Shown piece after piece: positions 5,864 to 21,613 of a DNA stretch of 64,000 nucleotides. How positions within the stretch are numbered: position 1 is the first letter of the stretch; each line of letters starts with the position of its first letter. The DNA is taken from the NCBI RefSeq assembly GCF_900113085.1, contig NZ_FOOC01000001.1, positions 186,001 to 250,000 on the forward strand, written 5' to 3'. Under the pieces are notes generated by a model, which searched no databases, was not told the origin of the DNA, and worked only from the letters and a program-made list of their open reading frames with translations. The translations under genes and the position numbers were made by a program. Source of the DNA: Fontimonas thermophila. Its GTDB lineage: Bacteria > Pseudomonadota > Gammaproteobacteria > Nevskiales > Nevskiaceae.

Positions 5864-5958
5864 CCCGGCTTCACTTTTTGGAACTCGGCGGCCGTTGTGC
5901 AGTCACAGCTGCGCCCGGCCGTGCCGGGGCCTCCACCAACAACCATCGAACGAGGGGT

Positions 5959-16864: not shown

Positions 16865-17731
16865 TCAGCCCCTGGCGGGTCCAGCCTCTGGCGTGCGTAA
16901 CCGCGGCAGATGGAAGCGGCGGGCTAAAAGGCGGTCGCGCAGTGTGCGCGGCAGCCAGCGCGCCAGTGCCGGCAGCAGGTGGCTGCCGCGGCCGATGCGC
17001 AGTACGGCCGGCGGCGGATCGCGCAGCAGCGCGGCGACCAGTTGCTGCGCGAATACCTCTGCAGGCGTCGCATGCTGTTGGGAGGCATTGGCGCGCGCGG
17101 CGATCGCATCGGCAACCGGGGCGTATATCGAGGCCTTCGATATGGACTCCGGCAGCACGCGGGTTGCATTGGCACCGAATTCGGAGCGGATCGCACCCGG
17201 CTGTACGGTGACGACCCGGATGCCGAAAGGCGCCAGTTCCATGCGCAGTGCAGCGGACAGGGCATGCACCGCCGCCTTGCTCGCGCAGTAGGCGCCGGCG
17301 AACGGAGTCACCAGGATTCCCGAGACGCTGCCGATGTTGACGATGCAGCCGCGCCGGCGCGCGATCATCCCGGGTAGCAGCGCACGCGTGACCGCCATCA
17401 AGCCGATCACGTTGGTTTCGAACTGCGCCCGCAAGGCCTCCTCATCGAGCTCGGCGAGCGGCCCCATTTGCCCATATCCGGCGTTGTTGATGAGCATGTC
17501 CACCGCAACGCCTTGCTGCTCCAGCAGCCGGACCAGCGATGCGATGCTGGCACCATCCGTCACGTCGAGCGCGGCAATGTGCATGCCCTGCGCGGCGAGG
17601 GGCTGCAGCGCCTCGCGGTTGCGCGCCGTCGCATACACCTGCCAGTTGCGCGCATGGAAGGCCTGGGCGAGCGCACGGCCAATGCCGCTCGAACAACCGG
17701 TGATCAGGACAACGGGGCGCGTGCTCGGCAT
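16865..17731 (-). CDS. short-chain dehydrogenase/reductase
   Basis: A 288-residue classical SDR. Cofactor motif ITGCSSGIG near residue 10, LDVTDGAS, NNAGYGQMG, the catalytic Ser in VNIGSVSG, and Y-x3-K in GAYCASKAAVHAL are all present. Arg at the end of the second strand (YATARN) favours NADPH. The C-terminal 70 residues (after PAEVFAQQL) are hydrophobic/basic and may contact the membrane. ATG 17731 is used; a TTG at 17746 is also in frame. It lies just downstream of the terminator that closes the gyrB/sRNA unit, so it needs its own promoter. Substrate unknown. Confidence 0.9.
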   Translation of the reverse strand: MPSTRPVVLITGCSSGIGRALAQAFHARNWQVYATARNREALQPLAAQGMHIAALDVTDGASIASLVRLLEQQGVAVDMLINNAGYGQMGPLAELDEEALRAQFETNVIGLMAVTRALLPGMIARRRGCIVNIGSVSGILVTPFAGAYCASKAAVHALSAALRMELAPFGIRVVTVQPGAIRSEFGANATRVLPESISKASIYAPVADAIAARANASQQHATPAEVFAQQLVAALLRDPPPAVLRIGRGSHLLPALARWLPRTLRDRLLARRFHLPRLRTPEAGPARG

Positions 17732-17786
17732 CGTGGGTCGTCGCAAGCAAGGCTGATCGGGCGATTGTGCCTGTTACCGGCGCGCG

Positions 17787-17821
17787 AGCAAAAGAAAAGC
17801 CGCCCAGGGGAAGAGCGGCTT
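17787..17821 (-). terminator. Rho-independent terminator after gyrB / candidate sRNA
   Basis: Minus-strand stem AAGCCGC (17821-17815) pairs with GCGGCTT (17803-17797) around an 11-nt loop, followed by TTTTCTTTT (17798-17790). It is the clearest intrinsic terminator in the window. It would end both gyrB read-through and the candidate sRNA, upstream of the SDR gene. Confidence 0.85.
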
Positions 17822-17893
17822 AAGGTGCGATCCCGGGGGGGACCCGGGACTGGAGGAGACTCGGTGCAGCGTTGGGGAGAGCCCTCGCGCTGC
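17790..17893 (-). ncRNA. candidate trans-acting small RNA with CCCC-exposing loops
   Basis: Read on the minus strand, a predicted promoter ends 8 nt before G17893, where a GCAGCG/CGCTGC hairpin begins (17893-17888 with 17871-17866, loop containing CUCUCCCC). It is followed by a linker carrying UCUCCUCC, a perfect 7-bp TCCCGGG/CCCGGGA hairpin with loop UCCCC (17849-17831), and an AAGCCGC/GCGGCTT terminator hairpin with loop UCUUCCCC and a T-rich end. About 104 nt with three hairpins whose loops all expose CCCC, complementary to G-rich Shine-Dalgarno sequences. This is the form of C-rich-loop sRNAs such as Xanthomonas sX13; homology is not shown. It could alternatively be a processed gyrB 3' UTR. 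Confidence 0.6.
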
Positions 17894-17900
17894 GGTGAGC

Positions 17901-17928
17901 ATATTAAACCGCTTCTGTTGCGCCGCAA
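17901..17928 (-). promoter_or_regulatory. predicted promoter of the gyrB-downstream sRNA
   Basis: On the minus strand TTGCGG (17928-17923) and TAATAT (17906-17901) are 16 bp apart. An AT-rich stretch lies further upstream (17941-17970), resembling an UP element. The -35 lies inside a TGTTGC/GCAACA inverted repeat (17916-17930), which could be a regulator site. TTGTTG at 17931-17926 with a 19-bp spacer is an alternative -35. Confidence 0.45.
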
Positions 17929-17975
17929 CAACCGAGATTTTCGGATGCTCGATTTAGAATTTCTTGATTGTGCGC

Positions 17976-21613
<3,638 letters not shown>

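Follow-up and report, generated by a model that had tools for sequence, protein, structure and literature searches.

In S. meliloti, PhaR (AniA) represses the small RNA (sRNA) MmgR, and the promoter of this sRNA contains a PhaR motif (PMC12542648, PMC8401924); the mmgR promoter is described as among the fragments used in EMSA. PHA granules are reported to sequester PhaR, in that way relieving the repression of phasins (PMC12542648), and PhaR is described as also activating a gene (PMC12849132). The double-hairpin RNAs of Burkholderia (RF02278, ncS27/bdhR1) are built from a CUCCUCC linker, a hairpin and a terminator; three to five homologues are reported per Burkholderia genome, and processing shortens ncS27 (PMC5688073). 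The anti-Shine-Dalgarno (anti-SD) sRNAs NfeR1 and AbcR1/2 are described as blocking Shine-Dalgarno (SD) sites (PMC8844928, PMC10746234), and the CU-rich region of ncS27 apparently works in the same way (PMC5688073). Going by its description, the betaproteobacterial S17 of Bordetella is comparable, being a repressing, RF02278-like sRNA that is processed to a short form and whose promoter is postulated by its authors to be repressed; the words PhaR and polyhydroxy are absent from the main text of that paper (PMC11722255). Here, we describe an RNA locus that behaves like MmgR with respect to its operator and like the double-hairpin RNAs with respect to its layout, and that we assign to neither. 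In the reading that we consider likely, it encodes a PhaR-controlled, trans-acting anti-SD sRNA of a new, often multi-copy family, which would be derepressed upon titration of PhaR by PHA granules.

The window, i.e., the whole 64-kb stretch of DNA analyzed, contains a predicted sRNA of ∼108 nt on the minus strand (17789..17896), delimited by its fold, its terminator and its homologues. It lies ∼80 nt past the stop codon of gyrB on the same strand, with gyrB (17976..20495, minus strand; DNA gyrase B Pfam domains) as the upstream and a short-chain dehydrogenase gene (16865..17746, minus strand; PF00106) as the downstream neighbor. On the minus strand, the RNA comprises a variable 5' hairpin with the predicted stem GCAGCG...CGCUGC (17866..17893), a linker with the anti-SD seed CUCCUCCAG (17850..17858), hairpin 2 (17830..17850), which shares the final G of the seed, a CGCAC block (17825..17829) and an intrinsic terminator (17790..17821) with a stem at 17821-17797 and a U tract. 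The linker of the window copy reads UCUCCUCC. A 5' hairpin is also predicted in several homologues of the subfamily to which the window copy belongs (subfamily B, below), with unrelated sequences among the folds inspected. An earlier note on this DNA, made from the letters alone, had proposed, for the minus strand, three hairpins ending in a terminator, and both fold and terminator scan bear this out at about 17790-17896; the sole terminator-like site in 17500-18200 is the end of the RNA. The predicted fold of the RNA is 3.1 sd more stable than those of dinucleotide shuffles (z −3.1; 0 of 200 shuffles as good), the minimum-energy fold of the window copy shifting once bases past the terminator are included. 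The promoter read in that note, TTGCGG-N16-TAATAT, gives way to a better one with a predicted −35 element TTGTTG (17926..17931, minus strand) and, after an N17 spacer, a predicted −10 element TTTAAT (17903..17908, minus strand), placing the predicted start near 17896. Of the 23 subfamily B copies, 10, counting the window copy, share the pattern TTGNTG-N17-(−10-like) and 13 lack it; putative transcription starts were set by −10-like strings or, failing these, ∼60 nt upstream, and a stricter scan of 17500-18200 gave no sigma-70 promoter. As judged from sequence, the locus is very likely a real sRNA gene.

Comparison with known RNA families gave no match at the Rfam gathering level in the whole window, and at 16 further loci (14 firm members; L185 and L186 doubtful) only two tRNAs reached gathering. 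Below threshold, the RNA stretch resembles anti-hemB (21.5 bits), RF02278 (18.8 bits), MmgR (18.5 bits), CcsR1 (17.2 bits) and sX13 (16.3 bits), i.e., mostly C/U-rich sRNAs, all far under gathering. MmgR (RF00519 'suhB', alphaproteobacterial ar8) is likewise short, its terminator hairpin is preceded by a C/U-rich linker, and its promoter has a PhaR/AniA-type operator; here, the operator is a match in sequence that overlaps the −35 element. However, the score to RF00519 is well below the gathering value of 41, and the linker and hairpin sequences differ. Moreover, unlike MmgR, the RNA described here is often multi-copy, occurs in a gammaproteobacterial order, and lies near phaR and pnp or a LysR gene. 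The linker, hairpin and terminator layout of RF02278 is found here as well, but the gathering value is 50 and the first hairpin differs. About 6.8 kb before the window start, on the minus strand, L186:2003-2048 (G000:C19:179202-179247) reads CCUCCUCCC followed by a terminator-like hairpin; it scores 25.7 bits to RF02278 and is a possible further anti-SD RNA of this genome. In the small-RNA literature on Nevskia and Solimonas, mostly outside subscription journals, we found no published work on the RNA, which apparently represents an uncatalogued family spanning almost the whole order.

The reach of this family was determined with a covariance model (R1) of the 3' part of the RNA, built from nine sequences including the window copy. 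R1 matches in all 58 Nevskiaceae genomes (E ≤0.01), in 82 of 85 genomes of the order (E ≤0.001; the misses are G077, G054 and G084) and in 25 of 185 genomes of a class sample (E ≤0.01), three of these 25 belonging to the order, with this genome among them. At E ≤0.01 and with weak matches counted, 47 of the 58 family genomes have at least two matches. The clade with the RNA includes Panacagrimonas, Sinimarinibacterium and Nevskia. By plain DNA search, clear relatives are present in three genomes of the same genus; in G003 and G004 the RNA follows gyrB at a distance of ∼1.1 kb, beyond a divergent LysR gene, and in G005 the RNA and gyrB are on different contigs. This genome has the window copy (subfamily B) and a subfamily A copy at C12:292460; a third match at C10:107387 is weak (26.5 bits) and doubtful. 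Copies can be clustered: L012:1102-1571 of a Panacagrimonas MAG holds two RNA copies 402 bases apart in a tandem repeat, and at both L176 and L155 three copies are found within a span of 4.5-6.2 kb. L104 and L107, in other families of the class, are A-like RNAs that lack a close upstream PhaR-type palindrome; the RNA family may reach beyond the order.

Several lines of evidence support a conserved structure. For alignment, we used 99 matches from 89 sources searched, mostly the stronger ones, of which 91 are distinct. First, in hairpin 2 and the terminator of the 91 distinct homologues, aligned by fitting to the covariance model, 91.3% of cells are paired vs. 67.8% in shuffles, and 228 cells are changed on both sides vs. 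67.2 in shuffles. Second, covariation in this alignment is 0.559, compared with 0.148 in shuffles and at most 0.248 in slid controls. Third, in a MAFFT alignment of nine sequences, covariation is 0.340 vs. 0.167, a value reached by 0 of 500 shuffles. Two measures do not separate: the count of doubly changed pairs in the 91 homologues (10 vs. 9.0 in shuffles; 63 of 500 reach it) and, in the nine-sequence alignment, a slide by −1, which leaves 7 pairs and 9 cells doubly changed vs. 6 and 9 unslid. Thus, as the earlier note had asked of relatives, the stems drift with compensation, and the stem of hairpin 2 covaries while its loop is not conserved. The seed CUCCUCCAG is identical in 89 of the 91 distinct homologues, and the CGCAC block is kept in 65 of 91. 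The seed is also predicted to be mostly open. In the 98 of 99 copies with an exact CTCCTCC (one copy was dropped), CUCCUCC has a mean unpaired probability of 0.79 in 75 subfamily A copies and 0.82 in 23 subfamily B copies, compared with 0.41 (A) and 0.43 (B) for the rest of each RNA and 0.57 for the seed with shuffled flanks; openness is ≥0.7 in 55 of 75 A and 17 of 23 B copies vs. 30 of 98 shuffled-flank controls. In the window copy, openness is moderate (0.65). A conserved, mostly unpaired anti-SD seed is a trait of trans-acting anti-SD sRNAs, and the CUCCUCCAG linker, by these sequence features, probably serves as such a seed. The suggestion that the locus is a candidate sRNA pairing with SD sites is thus well supported by an order-wide family, compensatory stems and a near-invariant anti-SD linker.

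The earlier note had passed over the palindrome TTGTTGCGGCGCAACAG (17915..17931; read on the minus strand from 17931 to 17915), which lies over the −35 box. It matches the PhaR motif of Ralstonia eutropha, YTKNTGCRNYGCANMAR (PMC12849132), at 17 of 17 positions and also fits the PhaR motif of S. meliloti (PMC12542648). The exact 17-mer has one match in 64 kb, where 0.01 is expected; it occurs at 58 sites in 11 genomes of the genus vs. 5 for the reversed pattern, and in this genome at three sites vs. one. These three are the RNA promoter, an apparently intragenic site and the intergenic region between a gcvPB-like gene and a PfkB-family kinase gene, the intragenic placement and the gcvPB name being read from reading frames and the gcvPB fragment having no Pfam hit. 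The intergenic site (L195; G000:C9:91077-91093) marks a candidate further PhaR target. For the core palindrome TGYTGCNNNGCARCA, this genome has seven sites and the reversed control none; apart from the RNA promoter and the PfkB site, these comprise one site at a phasin gene (PF09361) and four that seem to be intragenic.

In the 250 nt upstream of the RNAs, the core palindrome is found with at most one mismatch in 73 of 99 copies and with at most two in 86 of 99. Most B sites overlap the −35 element and most A sites the −10 element, a few A sites being further up. The R-N-Y center of the published PhaR consensus, which was outside the search pattern, is present in every one of the 68 distinct contexts that the 73 near-exact sites provide; being related sequences, these do not count as independent events. 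For the strict 17-mer, searched in the 200 nt upstream, 17 of 23 B copies match with at most one mismatch and 47 of 76 A copies with at most two, and the match is poor (>2 mismatches) in 6 of 23 B and 29 of 76 A copies. In controls, at most two mismatches were reached by 20 of 495 shuffles and by 10 of 99 downstream stretches, the latter arising partly from tandem RNA copies. The same operator precedes phasin genes: the phasin match occurs in 35 of 37 genomes, and all 30 fetched loci examined carry the 17-mer with at most two mismatches (none in 10 loci, one in 18 and two in the other 2), the shuffle controls covering the RNA loci only. This genome also encodes PhaR (PF07879 and TIGR01848 passed). 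The sequence traits of a PhaR regulon, i.e., a promoter palindrome, an operator shared with phasin genes and a phaR gene, are all present, and there is strong sequence evidence that 17915-17931 is a PhaR operator.

The copies fall into two subfamilies, split by the 5' arm of hairpin 2: copies with TCCCG, ATCCC, GTCCC or ATCCA were counted as B and the rest as A, and because everything lacking a B arm is A, the doubtful L185 (26.5 bits) is counted there. Subfamily A comprises 76 copies with an AAAGG-like arm, and subfamily B comprises 23 copies, including the window copy, with a UCCCG- or AUCCC-like arm. Within flanks of 1.5-2 kb (3 kb in the window), phaR lies upstream on the same strand in 50 of 76 A copies and pnp lies convergent downstream in 50, with both in 45; neither gene is found within the flanks of B copies. 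In enterics, GcvA drives GcvB. It is conceivable that the RNA is a LysR-controlled sRNA, with a neighboring GcvA-like LysR in place of PhaR binding the palindrome and driving transcription. Close relatives of a single GcvA-like LysR (hmmsearch E-value <1e-50) adjoin 13 of 20 B loci vs. 0 of 68 A loci (Fisher 6e-11), 10 divergent upstream and 3 convergent downstream; at two A loci (L088, L151), the LysR is only a distant one (39 bits). Also, LsrB activates the anti-SD sRNAs AbcR1 and NfeR1 in S. meliloti, tying these RNAs of rhizobia to a LysR regulator (PMC8844928, PMC10746234); unlike for AbcR1/NfeR1, the LysR link here is an association of neighbors and is absent at the window copy. Moreover, the same palindrome precedes phasin genes and A copies that have no close LysR, it fits the PhaR consensus including R-N-Y, and the window copy keeps a perfect palindrome with gyrB and the short-chain dehydrogenase gene, and no LysR gene, beside it. 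Because subfamily A and the phasin genes carry the palindrome with no close LysR, we reject LysR as its sole owner, and LysR control in place of PhaR is unlikely; both regulators could act on B copies. In L181, L182 and L177, which come from two other genera, B copies are followed after 30-34 nt by the LysR gene in convergent orientation on the other strand. The LysR of the relative L002, given as a fragment of 247 residues, reaches 243.3 for GcvA (NF008352), where the cut-off is 288; its closest relative in this genome is C9:230395 (53% identity), which is nearer to the LysR proteins of L004, L150 and L164 (70-77%) than to that of L002. No true GcvA was found beside the window RNA.

Extended target matches, CTGGAGGAG-N3-9-ATG, occur 38 times in 11 genomes, compared with 3 for the reversed control; among 30 of the 38 that were read, none is shared by more than two genomes. 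A unique target from the extended seed match is rejected, since the 38 sites are scattered. Candidate leads comprise, in this genome, an acyl-CoA ligase-like gene (L309) and, each in two genomes, a porin-like gene (L312 and L320; named by reading, with no family hit) and a weakly PHA-depolymerase-like gene (L301 and L310; for L310, 40.9 bits vs. a cut-off of 150). GAGGGG at 5952-5957, which the earlier note had offered as a suitable run, sits 2 nt before an ATG, close for an SD site. The seed is generic, which would suit an RNA that serves as a sponge, with CUCCUCC binding many messages, or a regulator, and thereby acting as a general brake on translation. Members of RF02278 are named 'toxic' for their inhibition of E. 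coli growth, and overexpression of ncS27 slows growth (PMC5688073); however, S17, which resembles RF02278, is described as not similarly toxic in E. coli (PMC11722255). The AG flanking the seed is conserved here, as is the CGCAC block, which suggests more than a bare anti-SD sequence, and we regard a general brake as distinctly improbable.

A further idea, advanced in the earlier note, was that the RNA is of the sX13 type and acts via CCCC loops. sX13 (RF02232) has three hairpins with loops of CCCC, CCCC and CCCCC (PMC3771888), and the window copy has three hairpins and C-rich loops in common with it. The claim that every loop exposes CCCC holds for two of the three, hairpin 2 and the terminator; the first loop is only partly open (unpaired probabilities 0.43-0.78) because GGG can pair with CCC. 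However, in the homologue alignment the loops drift, with CCCC kept in the hairpin-2 loop of 3 and in the terminator loop of 11 of the 91 distinct homologues, while the linker is conserved; the three conserved C-rich loops of sX13 have no counterpart here, and the score to RF02232 is 16.3 bits vs. a gathering value of 50. The alignment leads us to reject the CCCC-loop hypothesis, and an sX13-type RNA is very improbable. The earlier note had equated unconserved loops with a mere gyrB terminator; the loops are not fixed, yet the locus is more than a terminator. A gyrB terminator with chance C-rich hairpins and no independent RNA is scarcely credible. In its favor are the gyrB strand, the ∼80 nt to the stop codon and the good terminator; against it stand the near-invariant linker before a covarying hairpin 2 and the matches in every one of the 58 family genomes, which in 55 lie apart from gyrB and mostly have an upstream palindrome. 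The gyrB-downstream position itself is incidental: a copy lies near gyrB in only 3 of 58 family genomes, and the other 55 have no listed match near gyrB, the matches being on another contig or >100 kb off, as compared by eye and with contig ends that could hide a few.

For a PhaR-controlled anti-SD sRNA, the following circuit can be proposed. A sigma-70 promoter overlapped by the PhaR operator would drive transcription of the RNA, and PhaR, a DNA-binding repressor that senses PHA granules, would bind the operator and keep the RNA off; the repressor role is borrowed here from other species by analogy. PHA granules, which are putative in this genome, would titrate PhaR, and by the granule-PhaR-phasin logic the RNA would then be made together with phasins as PHA accumulates. 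The seed linker, located between the 5' hairpin and hairpin 2, would subsequently pair with purine-rich SD regions, in that way blocking translation, with Hfq perhaps acting at the U-rich terminator tail.

The question of PhaR control extends to the double-hairpin RNAs. A PhaR-type site (≤2 mismatches, 120 nt upstream) is found at 6 of 51 RF02278-like loci from other genomes of the class (L061, L069, L258, L275, L276 and L281, in five genomes), compared with 1 of 51 downstream stretches and 6 of 255 shuffles, the cores of these loci having been placed by a loose pattern so that several look wrong. With 6 of 51 loci, regulation by PhaR of RF02278-like RNAs in general is not supported; given the low controls, the link may hold for a subset, and PhaR is a suggested regulator for some of these RNAs. 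The RNA family described here would tie carbon storage to post-transcriptional control outside the Alphaproteobacteria. Tentatively, PhaR together with an anti-SD sRNA might even be a general device of PHA-storing Proteobacteria, with MmgR, the present family and a subset of RF02278-like RNAs as its examples. If this were true, stored carbon, as read by PhaR, would be converted into translational repression of chosen mRNAs, and these RNAs would be variants of one circuit.
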